Positions 17,056 through 31,700 of a stretch of DNA of 42,983 bases are shown in pieces. The DNA is taken from the NCBI GenBank assembly GCA_018813905.1, contig JAHJAO010000110.1, forward strand, positions 1 through 42,983, given 5' to 3'. Below the pieces are notes generated by a model, which saw nothing but the letters and a program-made list of their open reading frames with translations, did not search any database and was not told where the DNA came from. The stretch's first letter is position 1; each line of letters begins with the position of its first letter. The DNA is from Candidatus Omnitrophota bacterium (GTDB taxonomy: Bacteria > Omnitrophota > Gorgyraeia > B26-G9). A program made the translations under genes and the position numbers.

Positions 17056-17295
17056 ATGAAGAAAATTACACTCGTTCAGATGAAGACCGGGGCTAAAGGC
17101 CGAATTGTTCAACTCGAAGGCGGTCCTGCCTTTGAGAGCCGGCTTTCGGCCATGGGCGTGCGCATAGATAAACATATTGTGAAATTGAGCGCTTTTGTTT
17201 TGCAGGGGCCGGTGGCAATACGGTCGGGCAATACGGTCCTGGCCTTAGGGTATGGCATGGCTTCAAAAATATGGGTGGAATTAATTAAAAAATGA
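17056..17295 (+). CDS. feoA: FeoA-like ferrous iron transport protein
   Basis: MKKITLVQMKTGAKGRIVQLEGGPAFESRLSAMGV; overlaps feoB by 4 nt (ATGA). Confidence 0.88.
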   Translation: MKKITLVQMKTGAKGRIVQLEGGPAFESRLSAMGVRIDKHIVKLSAFVLQGPVAIRSGNTVLALGYGMASKIWVELIKK

Positions 17296-19004
17296 AAAAG
17301 ATTGTTCTAATCGGTAACCCCAACGTAGGAAAAAGCGTTTTGTTTTCCCGCCTTACGGGAGTGAGGGTGCTGGTATCGAATTATCCCGGCACTACCGTGG
17401 AATTTCTGGAAGGGTATGTGAACATAGATGGAGAGCAGATGAAAATATTGGATCTTCCGGGAACATACAGTCTTGAACCCAATGCCCCGGCGGAAGAAGT
17501 GGCGGTAAAAATGATCGAAGAGGCGGATTTGGTAATAAATGTTGTTGACGCCACTAATCTGGAGAGGAACCTGTATTTGACCATGACTCTGCTTGAACAA
17601 AGACGCCCGATGATTATCGCGCTCAATATGTTTGACGATATTAAGCATCGCGGTATTTCTATAGATGTAGCGAAATTAGAGGATTTGCTTGGGGTAAGCG
17701 TTGCTCCGACCAGCGGGATTACGGGCCTAGGGATAAAACAGCTAAAAGAACGCCTGGTGGAAGCAAAGCCGGGACAATTTGATCGGGGAACACACCAGGA
17801 GCGCTGGCAAAAAATCGGGGACATTATTGATAAAGTGCAGCAGCTTTCTCACCGGCACCATACCTTATTTGAAATTCTCGAAGATGCCTCGGTGAATCAT
17901 GCGTGGGGGGTAGCGATTGCGATTTTTATTATCGCGTTCAGCTTTAAGACAGTACGTTTTTTAGGTGAAGGGTTGATTAAATATGTGCTGGAACCTTTTT
18001 TTCAGTTGGTATATAAACCGGTTCTCGAAAGTTTTAGTATTTATCTGCAAAACAAACCATTTTTACATAATATTTTACTCGGCCGCATGATCGATAATAA
18101 CATTGATTTTGAAAAGTCAATGGGCCTGCTTACGACCGCGCCTTATATCGAATTTGTCATAGTCCTGCCTTATATTTTTGCCTTTTATCTTTTACTTAGT
18201 TTCTTAGAAGATATCGGCTACATGCCCCGCCTGGCGTTGCTCTTAGATAACATAATGCACCGGTTAGGATTGCACGGTTTTGCCATAATACCGATATTGC
18301 TTGGTTTTGGCTGTAATGTTCCGGGAATTATCGCTACCAGGATTTTAGAAAGCAAACGTGAACGCTTTATTGCCTCCACCATAATATCTATTGGTGTACC
18401 CTGTGCGGCATTACAGGCGATGATTTTTGGCATGTTAGGCAAGTTTGGGGCAAGATATGTGATCGCCGTGTACCTTGTGCTTTTCAGTGTCTGGTTATTT
18501 TTAGGCGCGGCCTTAAACAGATTGCTTAAAGGGTACAGCCCGGAGCTTTTTATTGAAATTCCGCCGTACCGTTGGCCGGATTTTAAACTACTGTTTAAAA
18601 AGATGTTTTTGCGGATAAAGGGTTTTGTTGTTGACGCGCTTCCAATAGTATTGCTGAGCGTTCTGATCATCAATTTATTGCAGCAGATAGAGTTGTTTGA
18701 AAGTATCTCGCAGTTTTTTGCTCCTTTGCTGAACAAAGTTTTCGGCCTGCCCAAAGAAGCGGCTTGGGCTTTAATTGTCGGATTTTTGAGAAAAGATATT
18801 GCGGTGGGGATGTTAATACCGCTTAAGCTTACGGTAAAACAGATGATGATTGCCTGCGTAGTTTTGTCGATGTCTTTTCCGTGCGTGGCCACTTTTATAA
18901 TATTTTTGAAAGAACTCGGCCCGCGGCGCCTATTTCAAGCGGTGCTTATAACGTTATCGATTACTTTCCTGGGCGGCGCAACGATGAATTTCTTTTTGCA
19001 TTAA
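17292..19004 (+). CDS. feoB: Ferrous iron transport GTPase FeoB
   Basis: GNPNVGKSVLFSRLTGVRVLVSNYPGTTVEF, DLPGTYSL, NMFD, LLGFGCNVPGIIATR. Confidence 0.95.
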   Translation: MKKIVLIGNPNVGKSVLFSRLTGVRVLVSNYPGTTVEFLEGYVNIDGEQMKILDLPGTYSLEPNAPAEEVAVKMIEEADLVINVVDATNLERNLYLTMTLLEQRRPMIIALNMFDDIKHRGISIDVAKLEDLLGVSVAPTSGITGLGIKQLKERLVEAKPGQFDRGTHQERWQKIGDIIDKVQQLSHRHHTLFEILEDASVNHAWGVAIAIFIIAFSFKTVRFLGEGLIKYVLEPFFQLVYKPVLESFSIYLQNKPFLHNILLGRMIDNNIDFEKSMGLLTTAPYIEFVIVLPYIFAFYLLLSFLEDIGYMPRLALLLDNIMHRLGLHGFAIIPILLGFGCNVPGIIATRILESKRERFIASTIISIGVPCAALQAMIFGMLGKFGARYVIAVYLVLFSVWLFLGAALNRLLKGYSPELFIEIPPYRWPDFKLLFKKMFLRIKGFVVDALPIVLLSVLIINLLQQIELFESISQFFAPLLNKVFGLPKEAAWALIVGFLRKDIAVGMLIPLKLTVKQMMIACVVLSMSFPCVATFIIFLKELGPRRLFQAVLITLSITFLGGATMNFFLH

Positions 19005-22953: not shown

Positions 22954-25704
22954 ATGTTAAAAGGCAAACAATATAATAAATGTTTTAAAATTCTGGCCAG
23001 TATTTTAATCCAGATTTTCATCACAACTTCTTTTATTTCAAATAGTTATAGTTTTATATCCCCCGGTGCTGTTTTGGCGGATAAAGATTCCGGGCAGTAT
23101 ACCCTCTCGCCGCATTTGGGCATCGCCAATCCTATGGTTATGGAAGCGTTTCAGAGTATCGGGCAGGTTGCGCCGCAAGAAAAAGAAAGATTTTTGCTTC
23201 CGCAATCGAAAACCTGGCTTCAAACAAATCAGCTTGAACTATTCCGTTATTTTGAGCAAAATCCGCTGATTACCGCTTCCGCGGAAGGTTACGATGAAGA
23301 TCTTAGCGAAGATGCTGGGCAAGAAAATTTTAAAGGAGGGCTGGGAGGTTTTTTTGGTGATTTTTTGGCGGGGAATCGGATAATCGGATTAAAAACCGTG
23401 GCTTTTCAACCGTTACATTCCAAGAGGAGAAGACAGCGGATAAAAGTAGATTATGATGAAGTAGTAAACGGGGTAGAGGGGGCATTGAGACAAATCAAGG
23501 AGCGTAATTTTAGCACATACGCTTTCGAAATCACTACAATTATCGCCGACTTGGCACAGCGAGACAAACTTTCTTTACCGGAGTTTACCGCAGCGGTTGA
23601 AACCAGTAATGCAGAGTATGCCAAGAAACATTGTTTAGAATATGAAAAGTTGGAAAATATGAAAAAAGATATAACCGGAGAAAATATCGCTTTTATCTAT
23701 ACGGCGGCAGTGAGCGCATTAATCAAAGAAGCGGTTAATAAAAAAGAAGAGCAGAGTAAAAGAGCGATAAGAAGAGTCTTGGAGGCGCAGTTAAAAAAGG
23801 AAGTGGGCGACGATGTTATAGAAAATCTTTTTCACAAGGTAAAACCTTTAGCCGAGGGGAAAAGGTATACCTTCGAACATTTCCAAAATGACCATCTCAG
23901 CAAAGATCAAAAAATTCAGCAGTTTCTTTCGGACAACAGTGTAAATTATCAAAAAATTTATGATGATCTCGCAAACTTTTTAGCACTATTGCCGATAACC
24001 AGAGTCCAGCATATCGATGAAGAAGTTGTATCGCATGAAGGCCGGCCGGGCGCATATATACTTAACCAGGACGGAACGCCTTTTACCGTTACCGTAAAAG
24101 GGTTAGATGTGTATAATCCATACCAGGATAAAGAGTATGAAGTCCGTTTCAAATATATTATCAAGGGAACTCAAGTAAAGATATCTTTTGAATGCCCGGA
24201 TTTATTGACCCTGTTATATCAAAGAGACACAGATGACATAGGCAAAAGACACCGATTTAACAACTGTGTTATCCCGGCCAAGGCGATGTATGTACTCATG
24301 AAACAATTTGAAGAATTTACTCCCGGAATGTTCCACTTAAATGAATCTCCCTATGTTGTTGCGGCAGCCTTGATGGAATATGATGAGCGTTTGAGTCAAG
24401 TCCCGAGAGTCTATACTAATCATACGGTTGTTCCGGCCGGCCTTTCCCGGTTTGATGCGGGTAGTATGGGCGTTTCTCCGGAGCGGCTTTTTCAAGTGAT
24501 GTTTGGTTACGGATACAAAATCGGGACAGAAGAATATCCTTTACTTGAAGATGCTAATGCCCGCCAGAGACTGAACAAGGATATGGGGAGACTTTTTATA
24601 AAAGATGGGAAAGTCGATTTTTCCTGGGCGGCTTTACAATTATCCGACGAAACAAATGCCGTAAGTGACGAACATGCCAAAGTTACAAAAGATAAATTAT
24701 TCATGACCGAGAAAGAGATTAAAGCGGTTCTTAACGGTTCCGGCGACTTTTTTGTCCATGAGAGATTGCTCGCTAAAGAATTAGAAAAGGGCCGGGAAAA
24801 TATTGACGGCAACGACCTCTGGGATATATATGCCAATCCGGATGATGGCGGGAAAAAGCAGTTTATTGATGAAATCTATGAAAGAACGGGGATCCGGCTG
24901 GATAGCAATAAATTGATTATTTCTTTAATCCGTAGATTAGCCGAGTATAAAAGTCAATACGATATTCTTAAAGATATCGTCCGGGTCGTCTGCGCTGACC
25001 GGGGCAAGATTGTGCAGACCAAGTGGGGAGACATGGCTGGGTTGGGAGAGCAGGTAGTGGTAGGGGGATTTGCAACTAGATTTGGTAAGGAAGAGAAATT
25101 TTGGATTAAGGAATTTTTGAGTTGGATGGTGGACCCGGATTTGCGCGGCCGGTTTGTCTTTGTGCCTGATTTTGACACTAAGCTTTTGAAACTGCAGGCG
25201 ATGGGGGCGTTGTGCGTTAATTGTCCCCGGCCAGAAGAAGAAGCGTGCGGGACATCTAATATGAAAGGTTCAAGGCATGGCCAGCCTAATATTGTCGTGC
25301 ATAATTCCGGCGGAGGCAAGGAACATCATGTCCCATTAAATCGACAGGCAAGGACGGGCAGCAGCACCTTGGTCGGGCCTTACCGGACAGACGACGATTT
25401 CAGTGAATTTTATGAAAAAGCGCCAAAAGATATTTTAGACGCCTTAGCCGCATATGGGGACATATATTATACCGATAAAGACCTGTGGAAAACGATAATG
25501 CTGAATGAGTATCGAAGCAGTGAAAAAGTAACTGCGGAAGCAATGTCAAAAAGATATGTAGAAAAAGTTTTTATCTCGGCGCGCGAGAAGGCGAAAGCGC
25601 GGCTTCTAAAAAAGAGTATGCGTATCCAAAAGCCCCTCGATTTAATCACATTTTTTAAAGGTACAAATGTTAATAACGAGCGGCTTATTGGCCAGTCCAT
25701 TTAA
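22954..25704 (+). CDS. Signal-peptide-bearing alpha-glucan phosphorylase-like (GT35) protein with large unassigned N-terminal region
   Basis: N-terminal hydrophobic segment ILASILIQIFITTSFI; GT35-like motifs FHLNES, TNHTVVPAGLSRFD, ALQLSDETNAVSDEHAKV, RRLAEYK, RFVFVPDFDTKLLKLQAMGALCVNCPRPEEEACGTSNMK (PLP-lysine context). Confidence 0.75.
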   Translation: MLKGKQYNKCFKILASILIQIFITTSFISNSYSFISPGAVLADKDSGQYTLSPHLGIANPMVMEAFQSIGQVAPQEKERFLLPQSKTWLQTNQLELFRYFEQNPLITASAEGYDEDLSEDAGQENFKGGLGGFFGDFLAGNRIIGLKTVAFQPLHSKRRRQRIKVDYDEVVNGVEGALRQIKERNFSTYAFEITTIIADLAQRDKLSLPEFTAAVETSNAEYAKKHCLEYEKLENMKKDITGENIAFIYTAAVSALIKEAVNKKEEQSKRAIRRVLEAQLKKEVGDDVIENLFHKVKPLAEGKRYTFEHFQNDHLSKDQKIQQFLSDNSVNYQKIYDDLANFLALLPITRVQHIDEEVVSHEGRPGAYILNQDGTPFTVTVKGLDVYNPYQDKEYEVRFKYIIKGTQVKISFECPDLLTLLYQRDTDDIGKRHRFNNCVIPAKAMYVLMKQFEEFTPGMFHLNESPYVVAAALMEYDERLSQVPRVYTNHTVVPAGLSRFDAGSMGVSPERLFQVMFGYGYKIGTEEYPLLEDANARQRLNKDMGRLFIKDGKVDFSWAALQLSDETNAVSDEHAKVTKDKLFMTEKEIKAVLNGSGDFFVHERLLAKELEKGRENIDGNDLWDIYANPDDGGKKQFIDEIYERTGIRLDSNKLIISLIRRLAEYKSQYDILKDIVRVVCADRGKIVQTKWGDMAGLGEQVVVGGFATRFGKEEKFWIKEFLSWMVDPDLRGRFVFVPDFDTKLLKLQAMGALCVNCPRPEEEACGTSNMKGSRHGQPNIVVHNSGGGKEHHVPLNRQARTGSSTLVGPYRTDDDFSEFYEKAPKDILDALAAYGDIYYTDKDLWKTIMLNEYRSSEKVTAEAMSKRYVEKVFISAREKAKARLLKKSMRIQKPLDLITFFKGTNVNNERLIGQSI

Positions 25705-25844: not shown

Positions 25845-26252
25845 ATGAAAAAAACAGTGCAAAAACTCAAAGGAAACGGCATTAAAATTACGCCTCAACG
25901 GGCCGAAATATACCGGATTCTGGCGGCGGATAATAATCATTTGACGGTGGAGGAAATCTATGCCAAAATAAAAAAGCGGTTCCCGGCGGTTTCTCAGGCG
26001 ACGGTCTATTGCGTCCTTGAACTTTACTGCCGGAAAAACATGGCCAGCGAGATTCGAATTAATTTTGAGCGGTCTTGTTTTGAGGTAAGAACGGATTCTC
26101 ACCATCATTTCTACTGTAAAACCTGCAAACGGATTTTTGATATCGATTTACATCCTTGTCCGGCCCTAAAGAACAAAGAAACAGGCGGACATAAAATAGA
26201 AAAACTGCACGGATATTTTTACGGACAGTGCTGCTACTGCCGGAAAAAATAA
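25845..26252 (+). CDS. Fur family transcriptional regulator, PerR-like
   Basis: KLKGNGIKITPQRAEIYRIL, HLTVEEIYAKIKKRFPAVSQATVYCVLELY, HHHFYCKTCKRIFDID, C-terminal CCYC. Confidence 0.88.
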   Translation: MKKTVQKLKGNGIKITPQRAEIYRILAADNNHLTVEEIYAKIKKRFPAVSQATVYCVLELYCRKNMASEIRINFERSCFEVRTDSHHHFYCKTCKRIFDIDLHPCPALKNKETGGHKIEKLHGYFYGQCCYCRKK

Positions 26253-26269
26253 ATTTAGGGGTAAAAAAA

Positions 26270-26980
26270 ATGGAGATATTCAAAGCTAAGTTTATCGAAA
26301 AAATAATCCGGACGCCGTCTGTGGCCAGCTTTCGTTTTGCCCCGGAGAAAAAAATAGAATTTTTGGCCGGGCAGTTTTTGAAAATTATGTTCGATGAACA
26401 GAATTTATCGAATAATAAGCTGAATAAATATCTTTCCTTTTCTTCTTCGCCGGCTGAAAGTTATATTGAAGTAACGAAACGGATAACGGAGAGTGATTTT
26501 TCCGGCCGCTTAGGCGCTTTAAAAAAGGATGATGTGGTATTGTTTCAGGGGCCGTTAGGTAAATGTGTTTTTAAGCCGGAATACAGAAAAATCGTATTTT
26601 TAATCGGCGGCATCGGCATAACCCCGGTTATCTCCATTATTGGGTACGTGTTCAAAGAAAAACTGGATAATGATATCGTTCTTCTATATTCGAATAAGAC
26701 GGAAGAGGAGATCGCTTTTAAAAAGGAACTCGACTTTTGGCGGCAAGAGGCGCGCAATGTAAAGATTTACTACTCGCTGACCGATTGTACCCCGAAAGAT
26801 GAAAAATGTATTTACGGGCGTATCGATAAGGGAATGGTTCAGGATAATGTCCGGGACATAAAGGAAAGGACTATTTTTATCTTCGGCCCGCCGCGCATGG
26901 TCGAAGCAATACAAGGCGTATGCCTTGAACTTGAATGCGATAAAAAAAGAGTACTGAGCGAAAACTTTATTGGTTATTAA
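26270..26980 (+). CDS. FAD/NAD(P)-binding oxidoreductase (ferredoxin-NADP+ reductase type)
   Basis: YLSFSSSP flavin motif, GPLGKCVF, IVFLIGGIGITPVISII, FIFGPPRMVEAI. Confidence 0.82.
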   Translation: MEIFKAKFIEKIIRTPSVASFRFAPEKKIEFLAGQFLKIMFDEQNLSNNKLNKYLSFSSSPAESYIEVTKRITESDFSGRLGALKKDDVVLFQGPLGKCVFKPEYRKIVFLIGGIGITPVISIIGYVFKEKLDNDIVLLYSNKTEEEIAFKKELDFWRQEARNVKIYYSLTDCTPKDEKCIYGRIDKGMVQDNVRDIKERTIFIFGPPRMVEAIQGVCLELECDKKRVLSENFIGY

Positions 26981-27031
26981 TAGGGGATTTGGAAGTAAAA
27001 GTTACGGTTGAATATTTAGGAGGTGAAAACA

Positions 27032-27427
27032 ATGGCAAATCTAAAAGACTTATTGCAGAGCGCGGATTGGAAAACGGAAAAGCATGCGCCGGTTATTGAC
27101 GCGCCGGATAAAGCGAAAAAAGGGGATATAATTAAAGTTACGGCAACGGTGGGCAAGCAAATCGCGCATCCCAATACCACCGAGCACTATATAAGTTCCG
27201 TGGAAATGTACTTTTTGCCGCAGGGAGAAAAATTTCCGCATTATATCGGCCGGTTCGAATTTAATGCTCATGGCGCGTCAGTCAAGGGGCCGAATACAAG
27301 TACGGTTTATACCGTACCGGAAGTTACGGTAAGTTTTAAAACAGACCTGTCCGGCACGCTATACGCCGCTAGCGTCTGTAATATTCACGGGTTGTGGGAA
27401 AATTCAAAGGAATTGATTGTTGAGTGA
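27032..27427 (+). CDS. Superoxide reductase (neelaredoxin/1Fe type)
   Basis: EKHAPVI, AHPNTTEHYI and CNIHGLWE supply the expected His4-Cys iron ligands; no N-terminal desulforedoxin domain; AGGAGG SD. Confidence 0.9.
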   Translation: MANLKDLLQSADWKTEKHAPVIDAPDKAKKGDIIKVTATVGKQIAHPNTTEHYISSVEMYFLPQGEKFPHYIGRFEFNAHGASVKGPNTSTVYTVPEVTVSFKTDLSGTLYAASVCNIHGLWENSKELIVE

Positions 27428-27461
27428 CAAATTCTTCGAAGGAGATAAAAAGAGGGAGAAG

Positions 27462-27707
27462 ATGACTGGTTTTAAATGCCCGGGAAGCGACGACCGGAAT
27501 TTAAAAGTTGAGATCCGTATCTGCCCGCGTTGCCAGCGGGAAGTTGAAGTATTTTCTGATGAAATGCGGGTAACATGCCCAAACTGTAATGCTTGGGTAG
27601 AGCGCAAGATGCTTCCGGCGTGCGCGGATTGGTGTAAATCCGCCCGGGAATGTTTAGGAGAGGAAAAGTGGCAAAAACTTAAAGGAAAAGGCCGGCATAA
27701 AAAATAA
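27462..27707 (+). CDS. Small zinc-ribbon protein in redox cluster
   Basis: ICPRCQREVEVFSDEMRVTCPNCNAWV...CADWCKSARECLGE. Confidence 0.7.
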   Translation: MTGFKCPGSDDRNLKVEIRICPRCQREVEVFSDEMRVTCPNCNAWVERKMLPACADWCKSARECLGEEKWQKLKGKGRHKK

Positions 27708-27734
27708 TAGATGTGTTCAAGCTGTTAAAATAAA

Positions 27735-28073
27735 ATGGAGGTTATTGTGGCCATAAACTTAAATGCGGACAATTTTGACCAAGAGGTTATTAATTCGAAT
27801 ATACCGGTGCTGGTGGATTTTTGGGCCGCCTGGTGCAGTCCCTGCCGGATGTTAGTGCCGATAATTGATGATATATCTATAAAATACGCGGGTAAGCTGA
27901 AGGTATGCAAACTGAATGTGGATGAAGCATCGGATTTGGCGGCAAAGTACGCGGTTATGAGCATACCCATGCTGATTCTTTTTGATAAAGGAAAACTGGT
28001 TAAACAAACAGTCGGGGTTATGTCCAAAGAAAACCTGGCTGAATGGATAGATGGATATTTAAAAAAAGGATAA
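27735..28073 (+). CDS. trxA: Thioredoxin (WCSPC active site)
   Basis: VLVDFWAAWCSPCRMLVPIID, KLNVDEASDLAAKYAVMSIPMLILF. Confidence 0.92.
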   Translation: MEVIVAINLNADNFDQEVINSNIPVLVDFWAAWCSPCRMLVPIIDDISIKYAGKLKVCKLNVDEASDLAAKYAVMSIPMLILFDKGKLVKQTVGVMSKENLAEWIDGYLKKG

Positions 28074-28100
28074 GTGGAATTGAATTGAAAGGGGCAAGAT

Positions 28101-28244
28101 ATGAAAAAATATATATGTACGGTTTGCGGTTATGTGTATGATCCGAAAGAAAATAATAATATCGCTTTTGAAGATTTGAGCGATGACTGGGTGTGCCCGG
28201 AATGCGGCGTGGGCAAGGACCAGTTCGAAGAAGTCAAAGATTAA
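28101..28244 (+). CDS. Rubredoxin (47 aa; not in supplied ORF track)
   Basis: [47 protein letters not shown], two CxxCG rubredoxin knuckles. Confidence 0.95.
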
Positions 28245-28245
28245 T

Positions 28246-29448
28246 ATGGTAGAAATAAAAAAAGGTATTTATTGGACGGGGTATATCGATTGGGATTTGC
28301 GCAATTTTCACGGATATTCCACGCCCTCCGGTTCAACTTATAACGCCTATCTTATTTTAGATGAGAAGCCCACGCTTATCGATACCGTGAAATATTACGG
28401 TTTTGAGCAAATGCTTCACCGGATAAAACAGATAATTGATCCCGCTAAAATACGGTATATTGTTTCCAACCATACGGAGATGGACCATTCCGGTTCAATC
28501 GGCGAACTTCTGAAGCTTTGCCCGAAAGCCGAAGTTATCTGTTCGCCTAAAGGCCACGAGGGTTTGATGCGGCACTTTTTGTCTGCGCCCGAAAAAGACA
28601 AGCCGAGTTGGAATTTTAAAGTGGTGAATAACGGGGAAACTGTATCTTTGGGCAAGCGGACTTTACAATTTTTTCTCACCCCCATGGTTCACTGGCCGGA
28701 TTCTATGGTAAGTTTTTGTGAGGAAGAAAAAATTCTTTTCTCCAATGACGCTTTTGGGCAGCATCACGCCAGTTCCCAAAGATTTGTGGATGAGGCGGGG
28801 TTGGATATTATACTTAAGGAAGCGGCTAAATATTACGCGAATATCGTTATGCCCTACGGGCCGCAGGTACTAAAAGCCCTGGAGGCGCTGGGAACGCTTA
28901 AGCTGGAGATGATCTGCCCTTCGCACGGATTAATCTGGAGAGAAAAAACCGATATCCAAAAGATTGTTTCTTTATATCAAAAATGGGCAAATTATGAATC
29001 CGATGTCAAAGCAGTTATTATCTACGATACGATGTGGCATTCTACGGAAAAAATGGCTTTAAAACTCTACGAGCTTTTAGACGTAAAAGGCGTGGATGTT
29101 AAACTTGTAAATCTAAAAGACACGCATATCTCTGACGCAATGACCGAGGTTATGAGTTCCCGCGTGGTTTGTATCGGCAGCCCCATTTTGAACAACCGGG
29201 TTTTACCCGCGGTCGGCGGATTTCTTACCTACCTTAAGGGCCTAAAGCCCAAAAACCGTTTTGGTTTTGCCTTTGGTTCATACGGCTGGGCAAAAGTGGG
29301 GTTTAAAGAACTGGAGCAGGCGCTTGAGGAAGCGGGGATAAAAGCGATCGCCGATGCGAAATATTTTCAGTATGTTCCGGCCAAAAGCGAACTGGACAGT
29401 TTAAATGAGACGGCCGATAAAATAAAACAGCTATTAGATGGTAAATAA
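28246..29448 (+). CDS. A-type flavoprotein / flavodiiron protein (FprA/Roo family)
   Basis: NHTEMDHSGSIGELLKL (HxExDH diiron ligands), SNDAFGQH, CPSHGLIW, C-terminal flavodoxin domain IIYDTMWHSTEKMA, GSYGWAKVG. ATG at 28246 directly after rubredoxin. Confidence 0.92.
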   Translation: MVEIKKGIYWTGYIDWDLRNFHGYSTPSGSTYNAYLILDEKPTLIDTVKYYGFEQMLHRIKQIIDPAKIRYIVSNHTEMDHSGSIGELLKLCPKAEVICSPKGHEGLMRHFLSAPEKDKPSWNFKVVNNGETVSLGKRTLQFFLTPMVHWPDSMVSFCEEEKILFSNDAFGQHHASSQRFVDEAGLDIILKEAAKYYANIVMPYGPQVLKALEALGTLKLEMICPSHGLIWREKTDIQKIVSLYQKWANYESDVKAVIIYDTMWHSTEKMALKLYELLDVKGVDVKLVNLKDTHISDAMTEVMSSRVVCIGSPILNNRVLPAVGGFLTYLKGLKPKNRFGFAFGSYGWAKVGFKELEQALEEAGIKAIADAKYFQYVPAKSELDSLNETADKIKQLLDGK

Positions 29449-29469
29449 TAAATAAGGAGACAAGGCGTG

Positions 29470-29955
29470 ATGAATACCCTGTTTAATCCCCGGGAAATCG
29501 TTAATGTCGCCATAAAAGTTGAAGAGAACGGTAAAGTGCTTTACGGGATTTTAGAAAATAAAACCCGCAGCGAAAACTTAAGAAAAACATGGGCGCACTT
29601 AAAAGAACAGGAAGAAGAGCATCGGAAAACATTCGAAACGATGCGCGATAATATCGGCGATTATATCGTTCATGAATTCAGTCCCGGCGCGTTCGATGTT
29701 TATCTTGAAACCCTGGCTTCAACCTTTATCTTTACCGAAGAATTGATCCGCGAAAAAATAAAACAGTTGTTTAATTCGGAAATTGAAGCCGTAGATTTCG
29801 GGATACAGATAGAAAAAGATTCGATACTTACATTCTCGGCGCTTAAAGAATATGTAATCGAAGGGAAAAAACCGGTTCTCGGGAAAATAATAGACGAGGA
29901 AAAAAGGCACCTCGCCCGGCTTATTTCTTTAAAAGAAAAGCTGCTTAAAAATTAA
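29470..29955 (+). CDS. Ferritin-like (rubrerythrin diiron domain) protein lacking rubredoxin domain
   Basis: EENGKVLYGILENKT, EEEHRKTF, EKDSILTFSALKEYV, DEEKRHLARLISL: four-helix diiron carboxylate pattern. Confidence 0.82.
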   Translation: MNTLFNPREIVNVAIKVEENGKVLYGILENKTRSENLRKTWAHLKEQEEEHRKTFETMRDNIGDYIVHEFSPGAFDVYLETLASTFIFTEELIREKIKQLFNSEIEAVDFGIQIEKDSILTFSALKEYVIEGKKPVLGKIIDEEKRHLARLISLKEKLLKN

Positions 29956-29966
29956 AAGCGGTATTT

Positions 29967-30386
29967 ATGCAGAAAAAGTTTATATGCCATGATTGTTTCC
30001 GCCTGAAAAAGTGTCAGGAGTCTTTTGTTTCCTGGATTTTTTTCTTTCTGGGTGTCGTCGCCACTATTTCTATCCGGGCGGTAAATATAACTTTAAGCTT
30101 TAACCCGCTGATGGCGCGCATTTTTTGGTATGTGGGGGTTGCGGGATTTCTGCTTTTTTTCATATACAAATTCAACTATTATAATATTACGCAGCAGCAG
30201 ATAAAAGATTGTAATTTAGTAGAGAAACTCCTTGAAAAAAATAAACTTGATGGACATGATTATGAAGTGCTGGGTACGATTATCTGTGCGTTGAATTCAA
30301 AAAAAGATAAGATTAACTTCTTCCTGATTTTCCTCTTTTCGGCCCTGGCGCTGGTTGTCGCCGTATACATAGATTTTATAAAATAG
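29967..30386 (+). CDS. Hypothetical membrane protein with N-terminal Cys pair
   Basis: CHDCFRLKKCQES followed by TM helices; co-directional within redox cluster. Confidence 0.55.
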   Translation: MQKKFICHDCFRLKKCQESFVSWIFFFLGVVATISIRAVNITLSFNPLMARIFWYVGVAGFLLFFIYKFNYYNITQQQIKDCNLVEKLLEKNKLDGHDYEVLGTIICALNSKKDKINFFLIFLFSALALVVAVYIDFIK

Positions 30387-30388
30387 CC

Positions 30389-30530
30389 ATCCTGTAATCG
30401 GAGAAAAAAGTGAGGATGTCTGATGAGCATGATTAAAAGCAGATTAGAGAGATTAAAATCGCTGTAATCTTTATTAATCTCAGTAATCAGGTATAATTTG
30501 AAGAGTTATGCCCGAAGATTATACCAAGGA
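30389..30530 (+). promoter_or_regulatory. Copy A of duplicated structured leader, upstream of glutaredoxin gene
   Basis: Shares GAGGATGTCTGAT and TTAATCTCAGTAATCAGGTAT (30474-30494) with copy B; inverted repeat GGTATAAT (30490-30497)/ATTATACC (30518-30525) abuts AAGGAGG. Confidence 0.7.
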
Positions 30531-30539
30531 GGTATAGTT

Positions 30540-30770
30540 ATGGAAGTAAAAGTATATTCTACCCCGACTTGCCCCTATTGCAAGATGGCAAAAGAGTACC
30601 TGTCTTCTAAAAAGATTTCTTACCAGGATATCGATGTTTCCCAGGACAAAGCCAGAGTTGCTGAGATGGTGAAATTATCCGGCCAGATGGGTGTCCCGGT
30701 AATTGTTGTGGGCAGCGAGGTAATCCGCGGATTTGACCGGGGGCGTCTTGAAAAACTTTTAGCTAAGTAA
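30540..30770 (+). CDS. Glutaredoxin-like protein (CPYC)
   Basis: MEVKVYSTPTCPYCKMAKEYLSSKKISYQDIDVS...SGQMGVPVIVVGSEVIRGFD; SD AGGAGG. Confidence 0.92.
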   Translation: MEVKVYSTPTCPYCKMAKEYLSSKKISYQDIDVSQDKARVAEMVKLSGQMGVPVIVVGSEVIRGFDRGRLEKLLAK

Positions 30771-30788
30771 CCGCAGCTTATTATAAAT

Positions 30789-31700
30789 ATGAAGATATAT
30801 GATTTGATAATTGTGGGTGCGGGCCCGGCGGGGATGACGGCCGCGGTGTATGCCGCACGCAAAAGATTGGAGTTTCTTATTATCAGCCGGGATATCGGGG
30901 GGCAGCTGAGTTGGAGCGGCGATGTAGAGAACTATACGGGGTATCAATTTATAACCGGGCCGGAACTTACTCTGAAATTCGAGGAACATATCCGGCGTTT
31001 TAAGGTAAATATGCATATGCCGGAAACGGTAAAAGAACTTATTCAAGAAGGTAAATCGATAAAAGCGGTTAGCGATAAGTCTGAATATATTTGCCGTACC
31101 GTGATTGTTGCCAGCGGGAAACGGCCGCGGCCGTTAAACGTAAAAGGAGAAAAGGAGTTTAGAAATAAAGGCGTTACTTATTGCGCCACTTGCGACGGCC
31201 CGTTATTTGCCGATAAACCGGTGGCAATTATCGGCGGCGGGAATTCCGCGTTAGACGCGGCGTTACAGATGGTAAAAATTTCGCCGAAAGTCCATATCGT
31301 TAATAACGCGCAAAATTTTACCGCAGATGCAATAATGGTCGATAAGTTAAAAGAGTCGCCGGTTGCCCAGATTTGGAATAACGCAACCGTCCAAAAAATA
31401 TACGGGGATAATTTTGTGCGGGGGATAGAGCTCGAAAAAGACAAAAAGCGATATGATTTGAAAGTCGAAGGCGTATTTATCGAAATCGGCTTAATCGCGA
31501 ATACGGACGGGCTGGATATTTTAAAAAAGAACGAGGATTCGGAAATAATCGTTGATTGCCATAACCGGACAAATGTTGCGGGTATCTTTGCCGCCGGCGA
31601 TGTCAGTAATGTGCCGGAGAAACAGGTAATCGTTGCCTGCGGCGAAGGGGCGAAAGCGACATTGGCGGCTTTTCGCTATTTGTCCACTCATACATTTTAG
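30789..31700 (+). CDS. Thioredoxin reductase / AhpF-C-terminal-like flavoprotein
   Basis: DLIIVGAGPAGMTAAVYAARK, YCATCDGP redox centre, IIGGGNSALDAALQM; lacks the HRRxxxR NADPH motif. Confidence 0.9.
   Translation: MKIYDLIIVGAGPAGMTAAVYAARKRLEFLIISRDIGGQLSWSGDVENYTGYQFITGPELTLKFEEHIRRFKVNMHMPETVKELIQEGKSIKAVSDKSEYICRTVIVASGKRPRPLNVKGEKEFRNKGVTYCATCDGPLFADKPVAIIGGGNSALDAALQMVKISPKVHIVNNAQNFTADAIMVDKLKESPVAQIWNNATVQKIYGDNFVRGIELEKDKKRYDLKVEGVFIEIGLIANTDGLDILKKNEDSEIIVDCHNRTNVAGIFAAGDVSNVPEKQVIVACGEGAKATLAAFRYLSTHTF

Follow-up and report, generated by a model that had tools for sequence, protein, structure and literature searches.

α-Glucan phosphorylases of family GT35 in the TIGR02094 branch, exemplified by the S. 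copri enzyme (9l6i), have a two-domain fold, a GGLG loop, His and Asn donor contacts, RR..YK and EA[SC]GTS motifs, and a PLP lysine. The glycogen/starch synthases of family GT5 (PF08323, TIGR02095) have a related retaining GT-B fold, and a review suggests that PLP replaced the nucleotide in a proto-GT35 enzyme (PMC11046441). The giant ORFs of Omnitrophota, with a giant protein of 39,678 aa in V. archaeovorus (Seymour 2023), are reported to have few annotated domains and to be poorly conserved (PMC10066038). Among protein sorting systems, PEP-CTERM and GlyGly-CTERM (PMC1569441, PMC3237569) and the C-terminal domains of the T9SS (PMC11285876) rely on an N-terminal signal peptide together with a signal that recurs at the C-terminus of many unrelated proteins.

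The protein considered here, P0001, is encoded on contig JAHJAO010000110.1 of a Candidatus Omnitrophota bacterium, in the stretch of 42,983 nucleotides that was analyzed as a whole (the window). P0001 is probably an exported protein, tagged by a leader and a tail, and a free-standing representative of a group of two-domain (GT-B) glycan enzymes that derive from GT35 and form a family within Omnitrophota. Its gene is a single intact ORF in which HLNES, TNHTVVPAGLSRFD, RRLAEYK, and EEACGTSNMK occur in this order; the ORF, its coordinates, and the motif positions given by the first-pass annotation, which had been made from the DNA alone, were all reproduced (Table 1). Arg661 and Lys666, which we take to be the equivalents of rabbit Arg569 and Lys574, and Lys771, at the PLP-lysine position of the pattern E-A-x-G-T-x-x-x-K, are likewise present as that annotation had proposed, whereas the relatives that have the latter site are without the lysine. 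Around P0001 (window positions 17292–19004 and 25845–31700) lie iron- and oxygen-stress genes for FeoB, Fur, desulfoferrodoxin, an ODP/flavodiiron-like protein, rubrerythrin, and a thioredoxin-reductase-like flavoprotein; of these neighbors, FeoB, Fur, desulfoferrodoxin, and rubrerythrin offer no functional clue, and no link with P0001 was seen.

Table 1. Features of the P0001 gene (window coordinates).
Feature	Residues	Position	Strand	Remarks
Whole CDS of P0001, exported-type GT35-like (export predicted)	1–916	22954..25704	+	ATG start, 916 aa
Signal-peptide-like leader: basic n-region plus hydrophobic stretch ILASILIQIFITTSFI	1–42	22954..23079	+	Sequence and leader profile
Leader motif LSPHLGIANP	51–60	23104..23133	+	Leader profile and motif searches
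GT35 N-domain, first part	about 84–165	23203..23448	+	hhalign to canonical GlgP; AF2 pLDDT about 70–94
GGLG loop (phosphorylase glycine loop)	128–131	23335..23346	+	Invariant in the protein family and canonical GlgP
Insert (~190 aa), mostly helical, low model confidence	about 166–348	23449..23997	+	Alignment, AF2
N-domain remainder, with HLNES, NHT (His490), and NGS (Asn594)	about 349–612	23998..24789	+	Alignment, AF2, hhalign; approximate boundary
C-terminal Rossmann-like domain, GT-B fold	about 613–890	24790..25623	+	AF2, hhalign; approximate boundary
RRLAEYK	660–666	24931..24951	+	Catalytic positions invariant across the protein family
EACGTSNMK	763–771	25240..25266	+	Lys771 (codon 25264–25266) at PLP-lysine position; Arg in relatives
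C-terminal tail LIGQSI plus stop		25684..25704	+	Tail pattern searches

P0001 has all of the TIGR02094-branch features named above, as does the canonical GlgP of its own genome. It differs from that branch in scoring below the curated cut-offs as a single sequence (PF00343, 21.4 vs. 27 bits; TIGR02094, 63.4 vs. 191.7 bits), in its added leader, insert, and tail, in a changed GKAHP motif, and in belonging to a family that is, overall, without the PLP lysine. The GT35 ancestry claimed in the first-pass annotation is borne out over both domains. A profile of the family matches glycogen phosphorylases in the PDB at E 5e-44 and GlgA at just E 2e-6, and hhalign of the family against eight canonical Omnitrophota GlgP sequences gives a probability of 100 and E 7e-48 over 540 columns. 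The AF2 model of P0001 (mean pLDDT 72, pTM 0.70) is good in the core, and every top Foldseek match is a glycogen phosphorylase (E 1e-18, prob 1.0, TM 0.42). The model of L041, a relative lacking the lysine, is better (pLDDT 86.5, pTM 0.87), and its top matches are also glycogen phosphorylases, the S. copri enzyme among them at E 5e-29 and TM 0.76. Once the relatives are included, these comparisons place the GT35 origin of the whole core beyond doubt, and P0001 reads as a divergent GT35 paralogue, because its own genome keeps the canonical GlgP elsewhere (575 aa; G000, contig C69; TIGR02094, 563 bits). Within GT35, the enzyme stands as a new variant. A second canonical phosphorylase was considered as a donor of the NMK motif, and none was found in a search of the own genome.

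The likeness to GT5 is much weaker than that to GT35, in both profile and fold. Pfam begins to detect GT5 (PF08323), by weak matches, in 12 of the 17 family members, most of which are without the PLP lysine, whereas P0001 itself has no significant match to the GT5 models, and its best match is not among them.

The large N-terminal region (residues 1–420) that the first-pass annotation could not assign resolves instead into the leader (residues 1 to ~60), the GT35 N-domain (about 84–165 and again from ~349), and an insert (~166–348). Alignment to canonical GlgP picks up again near residue 360, after the insert, which is common only to P0001 and its two nearest relatives, L023 and L004. The export-type N-terminus described earlier also stands, as a prediction of export: the start codon is upstream of the hydrophobic stretch, the leader profile matches, and a possible cleavage site lies at VLA/DKD. 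By alignment and motif searches, P0001 combines a full GT35 core with a signal peptide plus LSPxLxI leader and a LIGQSI tail.

A single-sequence search of genome contigs with P0001 gave no matches, whereas an alignment-based search found relatives in some 30 of the 386 genomes sampled from the phylum (scores above about 250 bits). Matches below about 145 bits were mostly excluded from the family; those examined were canonical GlgP or a second sub-branch (L030:5381–8581 and L031:5798–8953), which has a leader, a tail, and Gly/Ala at the PLP-lysine position. L030, the member tested, has a weak xylose-isomerase-like TIM-barrel match (PF01261) at its C-terminus. Three family members (L041, L042, and L052) are on contigs titled Planctomycetota or Elusimicrobia, by horizontal transfer or through mislabelled bins.

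Many relatives lie within very long frames, and the GT35-like domain is a module that recurs in Omnitrophota giant proteins. A 64.5-kb contig of genome G037 is free of Ns and open throughout as one frame, at least 21,496 aa long, in which matches to GT48, GT5, and TPR, among others, also occur. The 70,450-aa frame of G144 was rejected as a readable length: it contains a 24,000-residue run of Ns, and 46,432 residues are readable. Only some of the remaining long open frames of relatives were examined for Ns. The own genome of P0001 has long frames on contigs C64 (L215/L216), of 7,423 aa, and C93 (L206/L207), of at least 7,288 aa (with the leader; the 3′ end is the contig end). The 7,423-aa protein has a P0001-type leader and the tail NILVEQAI, whereas the 916 aa of P0001 hold a single module.

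The glycine loop, His490, Asn594, Arg660/661, Tyr665, Lys666, and Glu763–Thr767 are invariant or nearly so in the family, and the donor-site residues are invariant across 15–16 relatives. P0001 keeps 53 of the 59 family-conserved positions, including all core catalytic ones. The altered family-invariant positions (A124E, W600F, D769N, R771K, N775H, and G804S) could reflect decay. L023, the nearest relative, carries a frameshift and L004 is truncated at a contig end, so that the function of this sub-branch rests on one intact gene, that of P0001. In L023:1040–3822, as in L163 (G000, contig C76), the leader and tail of one gene are in separate frames, through either a genuine frameshift or an assembly error.

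At the PLP-lysine position, Arg (EA[CS]GTSDQR and close variants) is the residue in every relative of alignment A3 that has the site and in almost all of the others examined; L079 has Ala, L030/L031 have Gly/Ala, and Lys is never found in any readable relative. GTSNMK is therefore confined to P0001 within the family. The loss of the lysine from the family as a whole means that most members cannot be classical phosphorylases. In a 45-row tree rooted by outgroup, P0001 forms a group with L023 and L004 (100/100; L004 ends before the site) inside a 20-row clade (100/99) that lies within the family. Lys771 appears, most simply, to have been regained after loss in the family, because one early loss and one regain are more parsimonious than five or more independent losses. 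Phe740, Asn769, and Met770 have changed alongside Lys771. Phe740, which is presumably the aromatic residue at the Tyr648 position, is Ser, Gly, Thr, or His in the family and Tyr in canonical enzymes. These three changes are compatible with a rebuilt PLP pocket, whereas W600F and N775H would fit remodelling and decay equally. Given the apparently regained lysine, the adjacent Asn-Met, and the aromatic residue, P0001 could have returned to using PLP, or could do without it; its reaction may be PLP-dependent phosphorolysis or PLP-free glycosyl transfer.

The tag pair is a larger surprise than the enzyme. Its N-terminal half is a signal peptide followed by LSPxLxI, its C-terminal half a protein terminus of the form [ILV]xx[SA]I-COOH, and P0001 has both. 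A search for the LSP motif in the same genome as P0001 yielded unrelated proteins with the same leader that also end like P0001. In counts derived from searches and retrieved stretches, the tail DNA pattern occurs at 49 sites in that genome, and 32 ORFs end in the tail, nearly all of them with the leader where the 5′ end is present. BLAST among tagged proteins indicates that the leader is the segment most have in common. A leader profile trained on other own-genome proteins detects P0001, which was outside the training set, at E 4.9e-8, with a score of 30.2 bits against 15.0 for the best of 1,956 block-shuffled copies. The profile has 49 matches in the own genome and 376 across 12 genomes of its bacterial family (9–49 each), compared with 0–8 per genome in 46 genomes outside it.

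Leader and tail are coupled. Closed leader ORFs end in the stricter tail in 30 of 36 cases, and 34 of the 36 fit the relaxed pattern [ILVM]xx[SA]I (hand-counted from the list), the two exceptions being the frameshifted L163 and a weak match, L168. Because most stretches were retrieved via the tail, a fair count has to use only the six closed ORFs that were later retrieved by the leader alone, and all of these have the relaxed tail. The strict form [IV]EQ[SA]I-stop occurs 25 times in the own genome vs. 0 in the control, and at about the control rate outside the bacterial family. LIGQSI is a variant that falls outside this strict form, and both the leader and the tail of P0001 match less well than those of the EQAI core set; by its pattern, LIGQSI is of the tail type common to about 50 own-genome proteins. 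Among window ORFs of at least 150 aa, only P0001 has the tail.

Unlike PEP-CTERM, GlyGly-CTERM, and T9SS signals, the tag has an extra LSPxLxI after the signal peptide, and its tail, 5–6 residues long, has neither the transmembrane/basic end nor the folded domain seen in those systems. NCBIfam signal models gave no match to ten tagged proteins. A literature search, with preprints and most subscription papers outside its reach, found no earlier description of the tag pair, which is no proof of its being unknown.

The tagged proteins include cytosol-type ones: NMNAT with NAD(P)H-hydrate dehydratase and methyltransferase, an SF1 helicase, and HTH proteins with a kinase-type ATPase. In one leader/tail protein of 1,575 aa (L166:3963–8690, minus strand; G000, contig C101), nicotinate-nucleotide adenylyltransferase, methyltransferase, NAD(P)H-hydrate dehydratase, and an APH-type kinase are fused behind a signal peptide. 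Because such cargo would make little sense in the periplasm, delivery elsewhere is suggested; a partner or prey cell as the destination is a guess. The idea that tagged proteins are liberated modules of giant proteins is unsupported, as just 3 of the 32 have any counterpart in the giant frames examined.

The readings of P0001 differ in the use of PLP, in activity, and in location. It is quite possible, though short of probable, that P0001, in common with the other family members, is a PLP-free glycosyltransferase with a nucleotide-sugar donor, the nucleotide of which replaces PLP, and that Lys771 is a conservative Arg-to-Lys change. The family keeps its donor-site residues while lacking the lysine, GT5 begins to show in the Pfam searches, and EACGTSDQR resembles the ExCG loop of GT5. 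The proposal that PLP took the place of the nucleotide in proto-GT35 points the same way (PMC11046441). However, matches to GT35 are far stronger than those to GT5, and the joint Asn-Met-Lys change is not expected from a neutral Arg-to-Lys step. That joint change, together with Phe740, the retained Arg661 and Lys666, and a GTSNMK motif as in classical phosphorylases, argues for an active, PLP-dependent exported α-glucan phosphorylase in which Lys771 would bind PLP and glucose 1-phosphate would be released beyond the cytoplasm or inside a partner cell. This, too, is quite possible though short of probable: chains are unfolded during Sec export, so that PLP would have to be loaded outside; Trp600, invariant in the family and Trp in canonical enzymes too, is now Phe; and PLP biosynthesis (M00124) is reported to be missing or incomplete across Omnitrophota (PMC10066038), with PdxS not found in the 92%-complete own genome.

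A non-catalytic or decaying copy, serving as a glycan-binding or structural module under relaxed constraint in the sub-branch, would account for W600F, D769N, R771K, and N775H at family-invariant sites and for the frameshift in L023, but it is unlikely given a frame open across 916 codons and the conserved positions kept, all core catalytic ones included. Finally, classical phosphorylases are cytosolic, and several tagged proteins are of cytosol type (e.g., NMNAT and the SF1 helicase); yet a cytoplasmic phosphorylase with a chance hydrophobic start and a coincidental leader and tail is very improbable, since the leader outscores all of the shuffled copies, dozens of unrelated proteins have the leader and tail as a pair, and the tail is in no other window ORF of at least 150 aa.

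For P0001 as an exported, tagged GT35-derived enzyme, the leader would carry the unfolded chain through Sec, and the LSP motif, the tail, or both would send it to a common second destination (the cell surface, the periplasm, or a partner cell), by a route that would be that of the family's giant proteins. At the destination, P0001 would transfer or phosphorolyse an alpha-linked hexose by means of the glycine loop, His490, Asn594, Arg661, Lys666, and Glu763. The first-pass annotation was right in part, and the observation on which it was built is real; the changed acceptor or substrate pocket and the cell-surface role that it put forward stand as proposals. A broader proposal, for and against which we see equal weight, is that an undescribed sorting route (leader signal peptide plus LSPxLxI; tail [IV]EQ[SA]I and variants) exports some 10–50 otherwise unrelated proteins per genome, giant and cytosol-type ones included, possibly into partner cells, with a GT35-like cargo from a branch that lost PLP and a copy here that regained the PLP lysine. 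A natural GT35 branch in which the lysine was lost, and one member in which it was regained, would make the origin of the PLP phosphorylase within nucleotide-sugar GT-B enzymes testable, and the paired tag would give access to secreted proteins, including giant ones, of a predatory or host-dependent phylum.
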